Assembly (NCBI RefSeq): GCF_001613345.1
Contig: NZ_BDCE01000005.1
Span: 1 to 64,000 of the forward strand
From: Nocardia uniformis NBRC 13702
GTDB lineage: Bacteria; Actinomycetota; Actinomycetes; Mycobacteriales; Mycobacteriaceae
Direction of reading: 5' to 3'
Length of the DNA stretch: 64,000 nt
Positions 34,881 through 43,790 of the stretch are shown one piece after another. The notes under the pieces were generated by a model that searched no databases, was not told the DNA's origin, and worked only from the letters and a program-made list of their open reading frames with translations. The first letter of the stretch is position 1. The number at the start of each line of letters is the position of its first letter. Position numbers and translations under genes: made by a program.

Positions 34881-36452
34881 TCAGGCGTCGGCGAACTGCT
34901 TGCGCAGGTCCACCTTCACGACCTTGCCGCTGGCATTGCGCGGCAGCTCCGCCACGATCACCAGATCCTTGGGGTGCTTGTACCGCGCCAGATTCTCATT
35001 GAGGAACGGCGTCAGTTCCTCGAGGGTCAGGTCGGTATCGGGCAGCAGCGCCACCACGGCAACGGGTACCTCGCCCCACTTCTCGTGCGGGCGACCGATC
35101 ACCGCGGCCTCGTGGATCTTGGGATGGGCGAAGAGCACGTTCTCCACCTCGGCACAGTAGATGTTCTCACCGCCGGAGATGATCATGTCCTTCTTGCGGT
35201 CCACCACCCAGACGAAACCCTCCGCATCCTGCTTCACCAGGTCGCCGGAGTGGAACCAGCCGCCCGCGAACGCTTCCGCGGTGGCCTCGGGCCGGTTCCA
35301 GTAGCCCTGCATGAGAGTCGGTCCGCGATAGACGATTTCGCCGATCTCGCCGGGGGCGACATCATTCATCTCATCGTCGACCACGCGCGCCTGAATGGTC
35401 GGGATGGGCTTGCCGACCGAGCCGAGCTTGCTCAGCGCGTCCTTACCCTCGAGCACGCAGGTAATCGGCGACATCTCGGTCTGGCCGAAGACCGCCACAC
35501 TGAACGAATTCGGGAAGCAGTCGGCCATGGCCCGCAGCACCGTATCGGAGGCCGGAGCCGCGCCCCAGCACAGCGCCTGCAACGCCAGCTTGCGGTCCTT
35601 GACGGTCGGCTCCTCGCAGATCATCTGCCACTGCGCGGGCACACAGAACGCGGTGGTCGCCTGTTCGGTCTCCACGGCATCGAGGTATTCGGTGGCATTG
35701 AACGCACCGAGGGGATGCAGCACGGTCTTGCCGCCGAGCATGAAGTACGGGGTGAGGCTGCCCAGACCCGCGATGTGGAAGAGCGGGGAGGTGCAGAAGC
35801 CGATGGAATCCGGGGTGATCTCCATGGCCCGAATACAGGTCAGCGCCTGGGCGTTCATATTCGCGTGCGAGAGCACCGCGCCCTTCGGACTACCGGTGGT
35901 GCCCGAGGTGTACATGATCAGGCAGGGGGTGTCCTCCGAGATATCCAGCGGCGCATGCGGTTCCCCCGCTTCGGCAATGAAGTCGTCGTAGCCGATGACA
36001 CCCTCGCCGGTCTCACCGTTGATGACCACGCAGGTTTCCAGTGCTGGCGCCTGCGCGACCATGGCGGTGGCCAGCGGCTGGAGCAGGGAGTCCGTGACGA
36101 TGGCCTTGGCACCCGAATCGCCCACGATAAAGGCGACCTCGGGTGGAGTGAGCCGGAAGTTCACCGGCACCGCGATGGCACCCACCGCATTGATGCCCAT
36201 CACGGCCTCGATGTACTCGGTGTAGTTCAATGCGAGCAGGAGCACGCGATCGCCGAACCCGACCCCGCGACGGGCGAGCGCGTCGGCGAATTTCTCCGAC
36301 CGCTCGTGCAGCTGTGACCAGGTGGTGTCCACACCCTTGAAACGGAACGCGACATCGTTCGGACGCATGGCGGCGTGGGTCGCGATCTGATTGACCCAGT
36401 GATTGCGCCGCGACCGGATGGGCTCGTCGAGCGGCTGGAAACCAACGGTCAT
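34881..36452 (-). CDS. Acyl-CoA synthetase (AMP-forming), FadD5-like
   Basis: 523-residue ANL-superfamily ligase that activates fatty acids as acyl-AMP and then acyl-CoA. The phosphate loop is CLIMYTSGTTGSPKGAVLSH (near residues 175-195), with VFGQTEMSPI as the adenine motif near 320. GWFHSGDLVKQDAEGFVWVV carries the ribose-binding Asp, RKKDMIISGGENIYCAEVE the hinge, and LPRNASGKVVKVDL the catalytic Lys near the C-terminus. RRNHWVNQIATHAAMRPN at the N-terminus resembles mycobacterial FadD5. The ATG at 36452 has AGAGGA upstream. The mRNA leader can form an unusually long hairpin just before the ribosome site. The gene is divergent from the nitronate monooxygenase gene. Confidence 0.92.
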   Translation of the reverse strand: MTVGFQPLDEPIRSRRNHWVNQIATHAAMRPNDVAFRFKGVDTTWSQLHERSEKFADALARRGVGFGDRVLLLALNYTEYIEAVMGINAVGAIAVPVNFRLTPPEVAFIVGDSGAKAIVTDSLLQPLATAMVAQAPALETCVVINGETGEGVIGYDDFIAEAGEPHAPLDISEDTPCLIMYTSGTTGSPKGAVLSHANMNAQALTCIRAMEITPDSIGFCTSPLFHIAGLGSLTPYFMLGGKTVLHPLGAFNATEYLDAVETEQATTAFCVPAQWQMICEEPTVKDRKLALQALCWGAAPASDTVLRAMADCFPNSFSVAVFGQTEMSPITCVLEGKDALSKLGSVGKPIPTIQARVVDDEMNDVAPGEIGEIVYRGPTLMQGYWNRPEATAEAFAGGWFHSGDLVKQDAEGFVWVVDRKKDMIISGGENIYCAEVENVLFAHPKIHEAAVIGRPHEKWGEVPVAVVALLPDTDLTLEELTPFLNENLARYKHPKDLVIVAELPRNASGKVVKVDLRKQFADA

Positions 36453-36465
36453 TCTGATTCCTCTC

Positions 36466-36531
36466 GGGCGTGAGCGGAGGCCCTCCGGGGTTACGCGAGC
36501 TGTCACCTCCGGACCTTGACCGCTCACGCCC
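36466..36531 (-). promoter_or_regulatory. Long structured leader hairpin upstream of the acyl-CoA synthetase gene
   Basis: GGGCGTGAGCGG (36466-36477) and CCGCTCACGCCC (36520-36531) form a perfect 12-bp outer stem. The inside can also pair (AGG...CCT, TCCGG...CCGGA, GGT...ACC), giving a 66-base hairpin that ends 13 bases before the ATG, next to the ribosome site. No T-tract follows, so it is not a simple terminator. The remaining 370 bp up to 36901 include an AT-rich stretch (36610-36710) likely to hold the divergent promoters; no other element was recognised. Confidence 0.5.
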
Positions 36532-36796
36532 AGGTGCTCCTCTCGGACCGTCGTCGCTGACCTGCACCGGGTTGGCCCGGCGGCGTCGACGGCTGAACTC
36601 AGGCGAGAATAGCAACTAACTTTTTGGCGTGACAAGGGTTACAGAGAAGGTTTCAGGGAAAAATTATCATTCCTTCATTAACCAGTTCAGAGCAGTAAAA
36701 TTCGATCTCGCCGAGGTCGGCAGCTACCGAAGTTATCCCCAGAAGCGGCGCAAGTGGGTAGCCAGCTGTGCAAACTCCCACTCACATCAAGGTTGA

Positions 36797-37873
<1,077 letters not shown>

Positions 37874-37959: not shown

Positions 37960-38922
37960 TCAGGCGCGTCCGGCGCAGGCCTCGAAGTCGTGGGACGCGA
38001 TGAGCTCGATGCCGTCCGGGAGCGCGTGTAACCGCTGGATCGTTCGGAAGGCCGCGTCGCGGTCGGTATCGAAGAGCAGGCCCGGCATGGGCGCCTTCTC
38101 GCGAATCAGACTGACCTGCAGGTTGTTCCAGACGGCGTCGCCCGCCAGCAGTACGCGGGTGCCGTCGTCCACGGCGAGGAGGACGCCGATACTGCCGGGC
38201 GTATGGCCGTTGAGGTCGACCAGGATTACCGAGCCGTCACCGAAGAGGTCGTGGCTGCGCGGGAAGGTCAGTACCGGCGGACCGTCCAGTTCAAGGCTGC
38301 CGATCTTGCGGTCGCGCACGGTCTTGCGGACCACGCTCATCGGGGCGCGCGCACCGGACATGGCCCACTCGTATTCGACTGCCGGAAGGCGTAGTTCGAC
38401 CGATTCGGGAAGATCCAGCAGACCGGACACGTGATCCCAGTGCAGGTGGGTGGCGAGCGTGAAGTCGATGTCGGTACCCGCGAGATCGCGTGCGGCCAGT
38501 GCGTCCACAATCCCCGACACCGGTTTATCGGGCGCCACCAGCATCGGCACCGGGAAGGGCAGACCCGGTAGCACGCGTTCATGCACATTCGTACACAGGG
38601 CGGGGTCGACCAGGAACCGGGCCTGTGGATGCTCGATCAGGAACGCGCCCATGGCCATCGGCAGCTCGCGCAGGCTCCGCACACCCTCGGCGATGATGGT
38701 CTCGGGCGCTGTCATGCGTCCTTGAATCAGCGCGGTGAGCCGCACCGTGGTGCGCGCGGGCGGTGGGTCGACCAGCTCCAGCCCGGCGAGAAATATCCGA
38801 TCCGGCTGTCGAGGCCGTAGCAGCCGCGCGGGTGTCGCGGCCAGCGCGACGCAGCAGCGGGCGATAGTGCCGAGAGTGGATGGGCGACCGTCGGTGACGG
38901 AGTCATGGCTCACCCGCTTCAC
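37960..38922 (-). CDS. Metallo-beta-lactamase-fold hydrolase (AHL-lactonase-like)
   Basis: 320-residue MBL-fold enzyme. The dinuclear zinc motif is FTLATHLHWDHVSGLLDLPE (near residue 180). Further ligands are in LVDLNGHTPGSIGVLLAV (His), VLLAGDAVWNN (bridging Asp) and ELIASHDFEACAGRA (C-terminal His). The arrangement matches lactonases such as AiiA and related N-acyl-homoserine-lactone or gamma-lactone hydrolases; many MBL proteins have other substrates. The GTG at 38922 is a tentative start and the GTG at 38913 is equally possible. The open frame continues upstream but that part is low-quality sequence. It stands alone, convergent with the nitronate monooxygenase gene. Confidence 0.85.
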   Translation of the reverse strand: MKRVSHDSVTDGRPSTLGTIARCCVALAATPARLLRPRQPDRIFLAGLELVDPPPARTTVRLTALIQGRMTAPETIIAEGVRSLRELPMAMGAFLIEHPQARFLVDPALCTNVHERVLPGLPFPVPMLVAPDKPVSGIVDALAARDLAGTDIDFTLATHLHWDHVSGLLDLPESVELRLPAVEYEWAMSGARAPMSVVRKTVRDRKIGSLELDGPPVLTFPRSHDLFGDGSVILVDLNGHTPGSIGVLLAVDDGTRVLLAGDAVWNNLQVSLIREKAPMPGLLFDTDRDAAFRTIQRLHALPDGIELIASHDFEACAGRA

Positions 38923-39332
38923 GCTAGGCGATCGGCCACGGCTGGGAAGGTCCGCGGGTCGAGGGCGACACCCGCGGATCATCCGCACGTCCCCCATGTG
39001 GTAACCCGACATTCCTCGTGAAAAGACCAGTCCGACAGGCCAACTCGGCGGCCACCACCGCCGCCGCCAGCAACGGGCGATCGCACCGCACGTCGATACG
39101 TGCGCGGATACAGGCGCATCGGCTCCGCGAAACCCTTTCGGGGCAGGGTGGATTCTCGGCATAATCGCGGGGGGTACCTCGGCGGCCGGGACCGCCGGAC
39201 GCGGGAGGGAATTCCTGTGCGGCAGAGTTCGACGGCATCGGCCGGATCCACCCCGCGCCACCGGCACGCGCGCGGTATCGCCATGCCCACCCCAACCAGA
39301 ACCGGACCCCCTCGACTCGTGCGCGGCACGTC
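38923..39332. other. Intergenic region, no gene supported
   Basis: The 410 bp between the divergent lactonase-like and PKS-like genes contain only shadow frames. No clear promoter, hairpin or repeat was recognised. Confidence 0.5.
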
Positions 39333-42300
39333 ATGAGCGGAACCGCCCCCAGCCACCCAATGCCCGCCCCGTCCCTTCCGCCGGTAGCTATCGTCGGAAT
39401 CGGACAGCGCAGACCGACGGGAATCGCAGGGCCCGACCGAGATCGGACGACGACACCGACAAACGGCGCGCTGAGTAGCACTGCACCAGGAGGCGAGGAT
39501 CGGCGGCTCGATGCACCAATCATCAGTGGCCGGTCAGGCGCAGCACCACCCGTCGGTGGGCGGTCGGGCACAGCACCAACCATCGACGAACGGTCGGACG
39601 CAAGGTCAGCGGGCGGCGGCCGGTCGGGCACGGCACCTGCCGATGGCCGCCGCTCGGGCACCGTACCTGCCCATGGTCGCCAGTCGGACGCGCCGTCCGG
39701 CAAGAGCGGCAGCTCGAGCAGTGGGCCGAACGAACATGACCGGTCGGGATTCGATGGTTTCGACAGTTGCTGGTTCGGGATGACGGATCAGGAAGCGGCG
39801 GAGCTGGACTCGTGGCAGCGGGTCGGTCTCGAGGTGGCGGTGGAGGCACTGGATGACGCCGGTGTGGGGTATTCCGCGCGGGGATCGAATGCGGCCGTGG
39901 TGTTCGGGGCATGTGGGTGCGGGGGCGTGATGCCCTGCCGGTACGGGTCGTGTGGGGATGATGCCGCGCGGAATGTGAGCGCGCGGATGGCAGGGGATGG
40001 TGCGCGGCGCGCGGCGGTCAATGTCGCGCATCGACTGTCGCGGGTTCTCGAACTGCGCGGGCCCAGCCTGGTTTTGGACAGCGGTGGATCGTCGTCGGTG
40101 GTCGCGGTGGATATGGCGGTGCGGTTGCTCGCCGATGGGACGGTGCCGTTCGTTCTCGCGGGTGGGGTGGATCTGGCACTGCGGCCGGGCCTTTCGGACA
40201 ATCAACGGGGGCTCGTCGCGGCTGGCGCCGAACCTGGCACCTGCACGGTGGTGGTGCTGCGACGGACAACCGACGCCCGGCTCGCAGGCAGTCGGATCTA
40301 CGCGGAGATCGCCGGCACCACTGGATTCCACAGCGCCGGAACACATATTCCGCTTCGCGAGGATCGGACCGCCGCACTCAACGACCAGGTGGCTCGGCTG
40401 GATCGCGGTGACGAACCACCGGTATTGATCCCGATCGGTGGCCGGGACGTCAGGGAGGTCCACGACACCGCGATGCGGTGGGCCGCGAGTATCGGTACCT
40501 GCCGTTCGCTGCGTGAATTCGCGGCGGCCGCCGGACGATTGCTCCCGAGCGATACTCGTGCGGCGATTCTGGCCCGCGATCGCGATGACGCCGCGGTACA
40601 GCTGCGGGAACTCGCCAGACGGGTGGCCGCCACGAACCAGCCGGTCTCCGCCGCCGAACGTCGGTCCGGTGCGAACGATACCGCCGTGCCGGGCCGCGCC
40701 GTCACCGCCGACGTGTTCGGTCCCACGGGCGGGGCACCCGCCGCCGAGCGCGGTGCTGAATCGCTGCCTGGCAGTGGTGGGCTGCTGTTCTTGTTCTCCG
40801 GGGCGAGTGAGCCGTATCCGGGGATGGCGCGCAGTTTGGCGGCCCGGTATCCGGTTTTCGCGCGGGGGCTGATGGATGCCACGGATGCGATTGTCGCGGC
40901 GGACGGTCCACGGGTGTGGACGCCGCGGTTCGGGTTCGGGAGCGGTGGTGCCGGCGGACATGGCCGGGCGGGCGGGAATGGTGGTGCTGGCGGGGAGTAC
41001 GGCGACAGAGGCGAATTCGCGCAGGCGGCGACCTTCGCCTACCAGGTGGCCATGGCGGGACTACTGCGCTGGTGGGGTGTGCGCCCCGACGCGGTGGCCG
41101 GATATGGTTCGGGTGAGGTCGCGGCGGCCGCTGTGAGCGGGGCGTTGTCGGTCACCGATGCGGCACGGGTCGTGGTGGCGCGCAGTCGAATACTGTCCCG
41201 GCTGGGCGATATGGATGTGTCGGCCGTGCTGGAGGCGACCGCGGTAGAAGCCATGCGTCTGGTGGAGCCGATGCGCGCCGCCGTCGCGGTGGCCGCAATC
41301 GACAGTCCGCGCTCGGTCACCATTTCCGGCGAGCCGCGCTATATCGACGCGCTGGTGCGCCGCGCGCACCGGCGGACGATCTTCGCCCAGCGCACCCTCA
41401 CCAATGGTTCCTGGCACCCGGCCATGCCCGGTCCACGCGCCCGCGACCTGGCACCTGAATTGGTCGCACGCCTGCGCGAGATCACACCGAATCACCCCGG
41501 GGCGACCATCTATTCGACCACCCGGAACGGCGCGGCAATCCGCGGTGCGGAGATGGATGCCGAATACTGGGGCGAGAACATTGCCGGCCCGGTGAATCTC
41601 GCCGCCGCCCTGGATCAGGCTGCCACCCATGGGGTTTCGTCGATACTGGAGCTCGCGCCACAGTCCTCGCTGCACACCGTTGTCCGCGAACACCTCGCCT
41701 TCCGCGACTCCACCTATACCGTGGCAACCCGCAGCGACGAAGCTCCCGCCCTCATGCGCGCGCTGGCGCACCTGCACCTCGAGGGCCGCGCCATCGACTG
41801 GATAGCGCTCGGCCCGTTCACCGCGTCTCCGCCGAAACGGAGTTGGCGACGAGAGGCCGCCACCGCTCCGATGCGGCAGCATGAGCAGGAGAAGCCATCG
41901 GGGCCAGCGGGTCCGAGCACCAATGACGGTCAAACACTGCGGAATTCACCTCAAACGGTCGCGGCGCTGGACGAGCAATCGGCCTCGGAGGCACCGCCGA
42001 TTCCGGTGCGCGAGCTGTTCCCGGTCATGGATATCGTCCCGGAGCGCACCTATGTGGTCACCGGCGGACTCGGCGCGGCCGGGGTGGCGGCGGTGTGCTG
42101 GTTGCTCGAGGCCGGTGCGTACGATGTGGTGCTGCTGACTCCCGCCCCGCGAGCGCTGCCACCGGCGTTGCACGGGATGGAGGACCGGATCGTCCTGGTG
42201 CGCTGCGATATCGCCGATCGCGAGGATCTGGCACAGGTGCTGCACGATTTGCGGGAGTGCGGGCCGCCGATATGCGGAGTGGTGCATGCGGAGTCGGCCG

Positions 42301-42509
42301 CCGACGGCGTCATCGATCGGTATGGAATACCTGCCGTCGAACTGGCGGCCAATGTTCTCGAACTCACCGCAGCCGACGCCACCGACTTCACCGTGCTGGT
42401 CGCGACCGATTCCAGGGACGCCACGGCGCTGGACAAATTGGCTGGGGCGCACGGGTATCGGCAGGTTGTGCGGGTGGATTGGGATGATGGGACCCATCGT
42501 CGGCGATGA
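39333..42509 (+). CDS. Orphan PKS-like protein (KS-AT-KR-like) lacking catalytic residues
   Basis: 1058 residues with polyketide-synthase order but dead motifs. KS-like: PPVAIVGIGQRRPTG at the start, then a repeat-rich insert of about 70 residues, then FDSCWFGMTDQEAAELDSWQ and GPSLVLDSGGSSSVVAVDMA. The nucleophile in D-T-A-C-S-S-S is Gly here, and the HGTGT region is not found. AT-like: LLFLFSGASEPYPGMARSLA and WWGVRPDAVAGYGSGEVAAA, where the GHSxGE nucleophile Ser is Gly. KR-like: TYVVTGGLGAAGVAAVCWLL keeps the Rossmann glycines but the C-terminus stops before the usual Ser-Tyr-Asn region. No ACP, DH or TE is present. The gene has no biosynthetic neighbours. It could be a scaffold or regulatory relic, or a degraded synthase kept in frame. 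No ribosome site is clear before 39333. Confidence 0.8.
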   Translation: MSGTAPSHPMPAPSLPPVAIVGIGQRRPTGIAGPDRDRTTTPTNGALSSTAPGGEDRRLDAPIISGRSGAAPPVGGRSGTAPTIDERSDARSAGGGRSGTAPADGRRSGTVPAHGRQSDAPSGKSGSSSSGPNEHDRSGFDGFDSCWFGMTDQEAAELDSWQRVGLEVAVEALDDAGVGYSARGSNAAVVFGACGCGGVMPCRYGSCGDDAARNVSARMAGDGARRAAVNVAHRLSRVLELRGPSLVLDSGGSSSVVAVDMAVRLLADGTVPFVLAGGVDLALRPGLSDNQRGLVAAGAEPGTCTVVVLRRTTDARLAGSRIYAEIAGTTGFHSAGTHIPLREDRTAALNDQVARLDRGDEPPVLIPIGGRDVREVHDTAMRWAASIGTCRSLREFAAAAGRLLPSDTRAAILARDRDDAAVQLRELARRVAATNQPVSAAERRSGANDTAVPGRAVTADVFGPTGGAPAAERGAESLPGSGGLLFLFSGASEPYPGMARSLAARYPVFARGLMDATDAIVAADGPRVWTPRFGFGSGGAGGHGRAGGNGGAGGEYGDRGEFAQAATFAYQVAMAGLLRWWGVRPDAVAGYGSGEVAAAAVSGALSVTDAARVVVARSRILSRLGDMDVSAVLEATAVEAMRLVEPMRAAVAVAAIDSPRSVTISGEPRYIDALVRRAHRRTIFAQRTLTNGSWHPAMPGPRARDLAPELVARLREITPNHPGATIYSTTRNGAAIRGAEMDAEYWGENIAGPVNLAAALDQAATHGVSSILELAPQSSLHTVVREHLAFRDSTYTVATRSDEAPALMRALAHLHLEGRAIDWIALGPFTASPPKRSWRREAATAPMRQHEQEKPSGPAGPSTNDGQTLRNSPQTVAALDEQSASEAPPIPVRELFPVMDIVPERTYVVTGGLGAAGVAAVCWLLEAGAYDVVLLTPAPRALPPALHGMEDRIVLVRCDIADREDLAQVLHDLRECGPPICGVVHAESAADGVIDRYGIPAVELAANVLELTAADATDFTVLVATDSRDATALDKLAGAHGYRQVVRVDWDDGTHRRR
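39529..39705 (+). repeat. Degenerate repeats encoding a Gly/Arg/Ser insert in the PKS-like protein
   Basis: Units related to CGGTCGGGCACAGCACC recur about five times at irregular spacing and encode GRSGAAPP, GRSGTAPT, GRSGTAPADG, RRSGTVPAHG and RQSDAPSG. The insert separates the first strand of the KS-like domain from the rest. Confidence 0.7.
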
Positions 42510-42554: not shown

Positions 42555-42950
42555 TCAGTCCTCGGTACGCCCCAATAGCCGATCCGTTTCGCGGCGTTCA
42601 CGTTTGGTGGGGCGGCCGGTCCCGCGGTCGCGGCGCGGAAGGGTGGCGACGATGAGGGGGTCGGGCGGCGGCGGGCTGCGGTCGATCAGACACTGGGCGG
42701 CAACCGGCGGGCCGACCCGTTTGGTGATTACGCGCTCGACAATGACGATGCGCTCCAGACCGGCTACCCGAACCCGGATTTCGTCGCCTGGCTTGACCTG
42801 GTGGGCGGGCTTTACCTGTGTGCCGTTGACGCGCACATGCCCGGCGCGACAGGCTGTCGCGGCCGCGGAGCGGGTTTTGAACAGGCGAACGGCCCAGATC
42901 CACGCGTCAACGCGGGCCTGGGCCGATTCACTCGCTGGAGCAGGAGCCAC
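42555..42950 (-). CDS. S4-domain RNA-binding protein (Hsp15-like)
   Basis: 131-residue protein. Residues about 13-75 are an S4 domain: RVDAWIWAVRLFKTRSAAAT, ACRAGHVRVNGTQVKPAHQV and KPGDEIRVRVAGLERIVIVE. The C-terminal basic, Pro/Arg-rich tail (LPRRDRGTGRPTKRERRETD) matches Hsp15/YrfH-type proteins, which bind stalled 50S subunits in E. coli. The role here is likely ribosome-linked RNA binding. It is three bases downstream of the NlpC/P60 gene on the same strand and may be cotranscribed with it. Confidence 0.9.
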   Translation of the reverse strand: MAPAPASESAQARVDAWIWAVRLFKTRSAAATACRAGHVRVNGTQVKPAHQVKPGDEIRVRVAGLERIVIVERVITKRVGPPVAAQCLIDRSPPPPDPLIVATLPRRDRGTGRPTKRERRETDRLLGRTED

Positions 42951-42953
42951 GCA

Positions 42954-43625
42954 CTACACGATACGGCGTGCGGTGACGATCTGGTCGGAGCGGAGGTTGG
43001 TGTAGGAGACCGGGGTGCCGGACTGGACCGCATTGAGCAGCTTGCCGTCACCGGCGTAGATGCCGACGTGGCCGCCGCCGTTGGTAATGACGATATCGCC
43101 GGGGGCGAGGTTCTCGAAGGCGACCGGAGCGCCCACGTGGGACTGCTCGAAGCTGGTGCGCGGCAACTCGACACCGGCCTGCTTGTAGGCCCACTGCACG
43201 AGGCCGGAGCAGTCGAAGTTGTACGGGCCGGACGCGCCCCACGAGTACTGGGCGCCGACCTTGGTCTTGGCGGCTTCCAGCGCGATATTGGCGGGAGCGT
43301 TGTCCTGCTGCATGAAGCCGGGCATTTCGAACTGCGGCACACCGATGCCGGGGAGCTGAGCTCCGCCGCCGACACCCAGGCCGCCACCGAACTGGTTGGA
43401 CTCGGGGTTGGTGACGCCCTTGGTAAAGGCCTGCACCTGCGAATTGACTGCTGAGGCATCCTGATCCGACAGCGGAGTGTCGAAAGTGCCGATGCCGGGG
43501 ATCTCGATCGGCGCGGCATTGGCGCTGATCGCCGGGAACGTACCCGTGACAACCGCACCCATAATGAGGGCGCCCTTCACGGAATTCGGCAACCGAGATT
43601 CCTGTTGCAAGCTGTGCTTACCCAC
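42954..43625 (-). CDS. Secreted NlpC/P60 peptidoglycan hydrolase, c-di-AMP riboswitch-controlled
   Basis: 223-residue exported cell-wall hydrolase. The N-terminus has a basic start and hydrophobic signal (VKGALIMGAVVTGTFPAISA) ending in ANA. A Gly/Gln-rich linker follows. The C-terminal 110 residues are the NlpC/P60 domain: QYSWGASGPYNFDCSGLVQW with the catalytic Cys, GDIVITNGGGHVGIYAGDGK with the catalytic His, and a final NLRSDQIVTARRIV. It cleaves D-Glu/mDAP-type stem-peptide bonds. The GTG at 43625 has GGAG ten bases upstream; the longer frame runs into the riboswitch and is rejected. The c-di-AMP leader links its expression to envelope or osmotic signalling, as for rpfA-type genes in streptomycetes. 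Confidence 0.93.
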   Translation of the reverse strand: MGKHSLQQESRLPNSVKGALIMGAVVTGTFPAISANAAPIEIPGIGTFDTPLSDQDASAVNSQVQAFTKGVTNPESNQFGGGLGVGGGAQLPGIGVPQFEMPGFMQQDNAPANIALEAAKTKVGAQYSWGASGPYNFDCSGLVQWAYKQAGVELPRTSFEQSHVGAPVAFENLAPGDIVITNGGGHVGIYAGDGKLLNAVQSGTPVSYTNLRSDQIVTARRIV

Positions 43626-43644
43626 TGAGCCGCATCTCCGATCT

Positions 43645-43790
43645 TCCTTGCTCTGACCACCGACCGAGTTAGCTGACGGGTTCGGGCCGGCAAGATCGGC
43701 CCTACCCCATCGACCCTGTGGCCGACGAGGATTCACCCCATGAACTCTGGGTCCCCGGCTCGACATCGGTAACTGACCCGATAGTCGATT
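43645..43790 (-). ncRNA. c-di-AMP riboswitch (ydaO/yuaA type)
   Basis: On the minus strand the leader shows the conserved ydaO blocks in order: CCGGGGACCCAGAGTTCA, TGGGGTGAATC, GGGTAGGG, and CCCGAACCCGTCAGCTAACT followed by GGTCGGTGGTC. It ends just before the ribosome site of the NlpC/P60 gene. In actinobacteria this class usually switches off cell-wall hydrolase genes when c-di-AMP is bound. Ends are approximate. Confidence 0.9.

Follow-up and report, generated by a model that had tools for sequence, protein, structure and literature searches.

What keeps a large polyketide synthase (PKS) gene open when the residues needed for chain building are gone from its product? This question is raised by a locus of Nocardia uniformis NBRC 13702, found within a stretch of 64,000 nucleotides (positions 1 to 64,000 of contig NZ_BDCE01000005.1, assembly GCF_001613345.1) that was analysed as a whole and is called the window below. 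On the plus strand at 39333–42509, the window carries a gene for a type I PKS-like protein, in which a first-pass annotation, made from the sequence alone, saw every nucleophile replaced by glycine, a truncated ketoreductase (KR), no carrier protein and no pathway neighbours, yet 1058 codons without a stop, which suggested selection for something other than synthesis, with scaffolding or the sequestration of acyl-CoA as candidate roles. As checks, it proposed structure prediction, dN/dS (the ratio of nonsynonymous to synonymous change) and a search for orthologues with the same Gly substitutions; intact synthase orthologues or decay in close relatives were named as speaking against the idea. 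Here, we show that this pseudo-synthase gene is under purifying selection and that it belongs to one of two states, with either serine or glycine at the nucleophile position of the acyltransferase (AT) domain, in which the same gene occurs across the genus.

A synthase-like protein without catalytic residues

The reading frame runs uninterrupted from ATG to stop over 1058 amino acids (aa), and we define the pseudo-synthase gene, in its Gly form, by this frame, by same-locus orthologues and by dN/dS. Pfam finds a partial ketoacyl-synt domain (E 1.1e-21), Acyl_transf_1 (2.1e-33) and, matching the first half of its profile, KR (1.4e-14); there is no match to DH or PP-binding in the protein, and no acyl carrier protein (ACP) match within 27001–57000 of the window. 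Of the ketosynthase (KS), Pfam and the structure model recognize an N-terminal remnant (aa 140–330, 39750–40322), with the KS C-terminal domain unmatched, and by motif and alignment the codon of its active-site cysteine (aa 252, 40086–40088) encodes glycine in the motif DSGGSSS. The AT shell (aa 481–840, 40773–41852) is supported by Pfam, the model and matches in the Protein Data Bank (PDB). Its aligned nucleophile codon (41106–41108) specifies Gly592 in the motif GYGSGE, where functional PKSs have the Ser of GHSxG, described as the AT nucleophile in PMC4186864. The KR part, identified by Pfam and alignment, is the nucleotide-binding one (aa 905–1050, 42045–42482, with GGLGAAG at aa 911–917); it extends to a later strand, VVRVDW, and the segment with the catalytic Tyr is absent. 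Moreover, the AT His is replaced by Pro, the AT Gln by Ala and the KR Arg by Pro, the last being retained in the nearest relatives, which we refer to by their genome handles G126 and G145. The KS Cys, the AT Ser, a carrier with its Ser and the KR Tyr, all features of a functional type I PKS, are missing. Judged at sequence level by residues and domains, the pseudo-synthase is shown to be unable to make a chain.

The fold, by contrast, is predicted to be retained. In an AlphaFold2 model the KS, AT and KR parts are mostly high-confidence folds, with confidence values (pLDDT) mostly above 90 in the AT and mostly of 80–93 in the KR part, and the PDB structures that match the model are PKS folds, among which KS–AT didomains rank first. 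Gly592 is placed between strand 587–590 and helix 594–602, i.e. at the nucleophile elbow, and we infer that glycine suits the tight turn found there. Among the NCBIfam models, the best matches of the window protein and of one Ser form are NF045894 (PKS_plus_SDR) and mycobacterial PKS models (Pks13, Pks2), all far below their cut-offs; for NF045894, with a curated cut-off of 1740 bits, the window protein reaches 276.8 and a Ser form 936.5. Antisense frames as the real gene were ruled out, because substitutions fall mainly at third positions of the plus-strand frame.

Much of the first-pass description has thus held up. The Ser-to-Gly exchange in the AT is present here and in all 61 inactive orthologues described below, a carrier protein is indeed missing, the stop-free codons are genuine coding sequence by orthology and dN/dS, and the model shows, as a prediction, the retained folds. 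Glycine at every nucleophile is correct for the window copy but does not extend to its Gly-form orthologues, whose KS site varies, and truncation of the KR is true of the catalytic Tyr segment, whereas the frame itself continues beyond it.

Ser and Gly forms at one locus across Nocardia

The genus search covered 150 genomes, the majority 5–10 Mb in size, and the locus could be read in 134 of them, i.e. 33 reached via a PKS match, 100 via a neighbouring gene of the NMO (nitronate monooxygenase) family, and the window itself; the first 33 had been picked for having a PKS match, the other 100 had not. In most of the other 16 genomes, the NMO match was partial, weak or absent. Of the 134 loci read, 122 hold an orthologue that includes an AT domain. 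In the 122-row alignment the AT nucleophile position is Ser in 59, Gly in 61 and never anything else, with two fragments not covering the site, so that the same Gly substitution that the search was aimed at is found in 61 of 120 orthologues.

The Ser forms look like working synthases of the order KS–AT–DH (dehydratase)–KR–ACP, although their activity is inferred: KS, AT, DH, KR and PP-binding were all matched by Pfam in the five scanned, and the KS Cys and the AT Gln, Arg and His are retained in 59/59. They are single-module type I PKSs beside an AMP ligase of FAAL-like (fatty acyl-AMP ligase-like) type, and they share with the window copy both locus and domain order, with about 35–56 percent identity in matched parts. 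What the window copy lacks in comparison is the KS C-terminal domain, DH, ACP, the KR Tyr segment and the FAAL-like neighbour, besides having Gly for the KS Cys and the AT Ser. The FAAL-like gene adjoins most intact orthologues and is lost at the window locus; where the flanking S4-domain gene lies in the stretch, it accompanies 35/37 Ser forms (the exceptions are G081 and G171) versus 5/51 Gly forms; the label rests on one example, in which a DIP2-like AMP domain comes after the AMP-binding domain. Likewise, tblastn detects an ACP at 52/59 Ser-form loci versus a single Gly-form locus out of 61 (G035), where the match has Arg at the Ser position, so that the ACP Ser is kept in 0/61 Gly forms. 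Several of the unmatched Ser-form ACPs fall at the end of a stretch or contig, and G171 has no ACP despite its flank being present. The Ser forms G009, G114, G135 and G142 (loci L045, L099, L129 and L130) exceed 2300 aa, with extra sequence between domains in G009.

The Gly forms are far from uniform. Their proteins range from 1906 aa down to 639 aa, and the KS active-site residue is Arg in 17, unaligned in 24, Gly in 5, Gln in 4, Cys in 3 and some other residue in 8. Two Gly clades have no KS at all, with the five members scanned showing AT and KR matches only, plus generic short-chain-dehydrogenase-type hits, and one Gly clade retains a full-length KR match (3/3 scanned). AT and KR share one open frame in 59 of the 61, the exceptions being G085 and G066, the latter because its stretch stops before the KR, which is not covered. 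The KS Cys is kept in three Gly forms (G035, G068 and G092), and no Ser form of 59 lacks it; the order of losses is only indicated by such comparisons. A search for related loci with the single protein as query yielded a single, distant locus from Streptomyces and none from a named Nocardia.

Purifying selection on the Gly form

Do the Gly forms represent genes on their way out? dN/dS values (NG86 method with bootstrap intervals) lie at 0.22–0.43 in 18 Gly-form pairs, with a largest upper bound of 0.57, and at 0.20–0.32 in eight Ser-form pairs. For the window gene and G126 the ratio is 0.32 (0.26–0.37) at a dS near 1 and, by region, 0.17 in the KR, 0.24 in the AT and 0.42 in the KS. The clade to which the window copy belongs has 20 members, with G126 and G145 nearest to it, and all of them have an open frame of 831–1288 aa, although dS within the clade reaches about 1. 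Under neutral simulation at 0.46 changes per site, 1058 codons acquired a mean of 11.4 stops and 0 of 200 runs remained stop-free; at 0.1 changes per site, there were 3.0 stops and 11 stop-free runs in 200. A lone gene relic was ruled out by the orthologues together with dN/dS.

The obvious alternative is slow decay, i.e. a synthase that was switched off several times and whose genes are pseudogenes that happen to be unbroken so far. The extent to which catalytic residues, DH, ACP and the FAAL-like gene have been lost does indeed differ between clades, the AT and KR of G085 are in different frames, and at 12 of the 134 loci the gene was not detected. Against slow decay stand the dN/dS values, with upper bounds below 0.6 in 18/18 pairs, the 20 open frames of the own clade at considerable synonymous divergence, the several stops that neutrality predicts and a Gly592 unchanged in all 61 Gly forms. 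We consider decay a very improbable explanation; the gene is, very probably, a selected and maintained non-catalytic pseudo-synthase.

Several observations nevertheless weigh against maintenance. The 12 genomes without the gene, all from the NMO-selected set and two of them on contigs shorter than 9 kb, imply that it seems dispensable in some species; in G105, G140 and G128, no AT domain occurs at this locus despite NMO, metallo-beta-lactamase-fold hydrolase (MBL) and S4 flanks, and G149 likewise has none there, with NMO and MBL present and S4 not found in the stretch (this set of four has the locus labels L124, L128, L146 and L152). The split frame of G085 (L121), which is not shared by the open genes of its near relatives G084, G086 and G008, is either a recent break or a sequencing error. 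The start of the window gene has shifted frame, several Gly-form pairs have a dN/dS somewhat above that of Ser forms, the KS remnant is less constrained, and synonymous sites approach saturation in divergent pairs.

The claim of selection for a role other than synthesis is nevertheless well supported, since none of the 18 Gly-form pairs comes near a dN/dS of 1, the glycine is unchanged in 61 and the frames are open. Of the two observations named in advance as speaking against it, decay was not seen among close relatives, with 20/20 own-clade frames open. Intact synthases do occur, as the 59 Ser forms, but these sit in other clades and so show the starting point rather than refuting maintenance.

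Repeated origin of the Gly form

The flank proteins of 131 genomes, 119 of them scored as Ser or Gly (G006, G015 and G099 omitted), give a tree that requires a minimum of seven changes between Ser and Gly, or eight if change is irreversible. In a tree of the PKS gene itself, with the motif columns removed (118 rows; G015, G060, G079 and G166 omitted), the minimum is six either way. As some deep branches are weak, we claim at least six origins and no exact number. By these trees, the Gly form is taken to have arisen at least six times in one genus.

Could this repetition be only apparent, with one ancestral dead allele having spread or been sorted among species by horizontal exchange? The weak support of some deep branches in both trees would leave room for this. 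An approximately unbiased (AU) test on 54 of the 118 rows, picked for spread in the same way as the 54 of 122 proteins in the structure alignment, rejects a single Gly clade and with it a single origin (log-likelihood loss 146, p-AU 1.5e-26), and several Gly clades adjoin the same Ser-form relatives in gene and flank-protein trees alike. A single dead allele is thus an extremely remote prospect.

What is released and what is held

Within the 61 Gly forms the Gly592 codon has undergone at least 21 third-position changes and 0 amino-acid changes. Of 404 columns, 25 are unchanged, including that of Gly592, and among the columns present in the window protein it is the only position at which every Gly group has departed completely from the Ser-form residue. 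Two further points count on the other side. First, the AT Ser codon is AGC or AGT in 58/59 Ser forms, a single A-to-G step away from Gly, and mutation may therefore partly explain how Gly is reached; such mutational ease does not explain why Gly persists. Second, with Pro for the AT His, Ala for the AT Gln and Pro for the KR Arg, the window copy may bind a ligand more weakly than its relatives do. Parallel changes also occur in separate Gly clades (L040–L175), i.e. KS DPQQR to DPRQR, KS Asn to Asp and KR Tyr to Asp, of which the first two can, like AT Ser to Gly, be single A-to-G steps.

Ranking Gly-form retention among columns that are invariant in Ser forms, with residue roles in the AT and KR domains assigned from general knowledge, separates two kinds of residues. 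Catalytic ones are at the bottom, with percentiles of 0, 6 and 12 for the AT Ser, Gln and His and of 2, 8 and 0 for the KR Lys, Ser and Tyr; the AT His is kept in 35/61 and the KR Tyr in 6/61. The KR glycines, Arg and CD..D residues are at percentiles 61–74, kept in 57–59 of 61. As a set, the KR nucleotide-binding residues are kept in 56–59/61, the exact GGLGxxG motif is present in 57/61, and the HAAG motif is less kept at its end (Gly in 22/61). The AT Arg, which we take to be the residue that would hold a carboxylate, is at percentile 40, and its retention in 51/61 fits binding, yet the AT His is Pro in the window copy. The KR Arg is presumably the one contacting the 2'-phosphate of NADP. 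On average, invariant positions are retained at 0.42 in the KS, 0.75 in the AT and 0.74 in the KR. The AT shell with its elbow Gly is found in 8/8 Gly groups and the KR nucleotide-binding half in 7/8, the eighth being G066, where it is not covered. Catalysis was thus let go, and the folds of the AT and KR were held, together with the probable nucleotide site.

One might object that the protein is still an active enzyme with a changed chemistry, e.g. a reductase or hydrolase using other residues. Such an enzyme could make use of the conserved nucleotide-binding residues, and six long Gly forms still have the KR Tyr, while one clade has a full-length KR match. A shared replacement residue was not found, however, the AT Gly being the sole fully shifted position among columns present in the window protein; retention is lowest for columns such as those of the KR Tyr, Ser and Lys, and the AT His is present in 35/61 Gly forms. 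We therefore regard a changed chemistry as highly improbable.

A maintained binding protein?

As in pseudoenzymes, a homologue of an enzyme has here lost its catalytic residues, is under purifying selection and, by prediction, retains its fold. What, then, would be maintained? The ancestor would have been a single-module KS–AT–DH–KR–ACP synthase, of which the descendant lost chain building, and the AT–KR body would act as a scaffold or sensor through non-catalytic binding of a partner protein and/or a small ligand, a function that the active parent probably already performed alongside synthesis. A maintained pseudo-synthase of this kind is, in our view, the likely explanation overall. Taken separately, a binding or scaffold role of the AT–KR body, suggested by the parts retained, is a plausible but evenly balanced proposition. 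The candidate ligand sites would be one for NADP(H) at the KR half and one for acyl-CoA at the AT, and naming these ligands is a guess from retained residues that we consider rather doubtful. Reaching the same outcome at least six times is most simply explained by a second function that pre-existed in the active parent. We tentatively propose that this function of the parental AT–KR part, be it NADP(H)/acyl-CoA sensing or the holding of a partner, was freed at least six times, always via AT Ser to Gly. Together with losses of whole domains, the ACP, the KS Cys and the KR Tyr, this exchange would make up a natural series from enzyme to pseudo-enzyme.

The dead protein might also pair with an active PKS or fatty acid synthase (FAS) that it shapes or anchors in the style of a chain-length factor. 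The predicted KS-part, AT and KR-part folds would suit such a partner, motifs such as RRAxRR (aa 676–681) are invariant in Ser and Gly forms alike, and there are many further PKS modules in the own genome. Pairing is harder to reconcile with the two Gly clades that are without a KS, and hence without the usual dimer part, and with the loss of the FAAL-like gene from most Gly forms; a second PKS gene was not noticed at the locus. A structural partner is an unlikely reading, and maintained AT–KR binding is the one we prefer.

Locus context and gene start

The flanks are largely conserved across the genus, in the order AMP ligase, NMO, often MBL, PKS and then S4 and NlpC/P60. In the window these are an AMP-binding ligase (34881–36635, minus strand) and an NMO-family gene (36839–37873, plus), both conserved neighbours, an MBL gene that is a neighbour in part of the genus (37960–39267, minus) and, as conserved downstream flanks, an S4-domain protein (42555–42950, minus) and an NlpC/P60 protein (42954–43766, minus). 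The first-pass impression of a gene with no pathway neighbours therefore fits the lost FAAL-like gene but overlooks the conserved AMP ligase and NMO. The NMO-family gene is retained next to both Ser and Gly forms. Trans-acting enoyl reductases of PKS and polyunsaturated fatty acid systems belong to the same family, and this member may once have served the active synthase. In G017, G033 and G008 (L049, L051 and L055), the pair of AMP ligase and NMO stands in inverted orientation to the PKS, and in G021 (L044) at least two S4-domain matches lie close to the PKS.

The window belongs to a contig that we label C5, in an 8.77-Mb genome. The nocobactin PKS model NbtC matches this genome with 1594.5 bits, above its cut-off of 1150, which fits the genus Nocardia. 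Among the matches listed, own-genome sequences are at most 40 percent identical to the window protein (P0001) and 37–40 percent to an intact orthologue. An intact copy that had moved elsewhere was considered as an explanation, and none was seen among these matches in the own genome. Nor is the AT Gly supported as a genome-wide feature of PKSs or of the assembly: in a motif search of 11 other own-genome PKS loci, nine were matched, all nine with Ser, and of the two missed, one (contig C7) has Ser.

Upstream of the main frame, a leader frame of 39 codons (39217–39336, plus) begins with a GTG that fits the start in relatives and is out of frame with the main gene in the window copy and in G145. 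Its TGA overlaps the main ATG at 39333 (ATGA), which suggests a coupled restart. Shortly after the start, the KS remnant contains a low-complexity insertion (aa 31–139, 39423–39749, plus) with low model confidence, and 30-bp tandem repeats at 39513–39681 encode part of this Gly/Arg/Ser-rich sequence.

Discussion

Non-catalytic relatives of synthase domains are familiar in other settings. The chain-length factor (KS-beta) and KSQ domains are ketosynthase relatives with a replaced active-site Cys, typically Gln, which work with an active synthase. The pseudo-synthase resembles them in its replaced KS Cys and differs in that it has also lost the functions of the AT, KR and ACP. The AT docking remnants of trans-AT PKSs are dead and much reduced AT pieces kept as structure inside working modules, whereas here a whole AT shell including the elbow is kept, and in a dead protein. 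In the pseudo-KR and pseudo-ME of animal FAS, a non-catalytic Rossmann-type domain is kept for structure; in the present case, the nucleotide-binding half is kept without an accompanying active domain.

The excerpted texts of three Nocardia surveys report T1PKS (type I PKS) clusters in all species and abundant families of mono-modular PKS-like proteins (PMC12153302, PMC7413640, PMC4035055), and these excerpts contain neither a link from the window locus to a named conserved PKS cluster nor a mention of a conserved dead synthase. On pseudoenzymes among PKSs, or on PKS or AT domains that are inactive, searches of open-licence papers yielded nothing pertinent. To our knowledge of that literature, a megasynthase repeatedly made into a maintained dead protein via one residue is undescribed.

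Pseudoenzymes as such are known; here, forms of 1906 down to 639 aa are found at one chromosomal locus. They amount to a replicated natural experiment in which an enzyme loses catalysis and keeps a function. For genome mining this calls for caution, as such loci may pass for type I PKS clusters in homology searches without any product being possible. For the genus Nocardia itself, a possible non-catalytic role is thereby indicated for a conserved, unassigned synthase.

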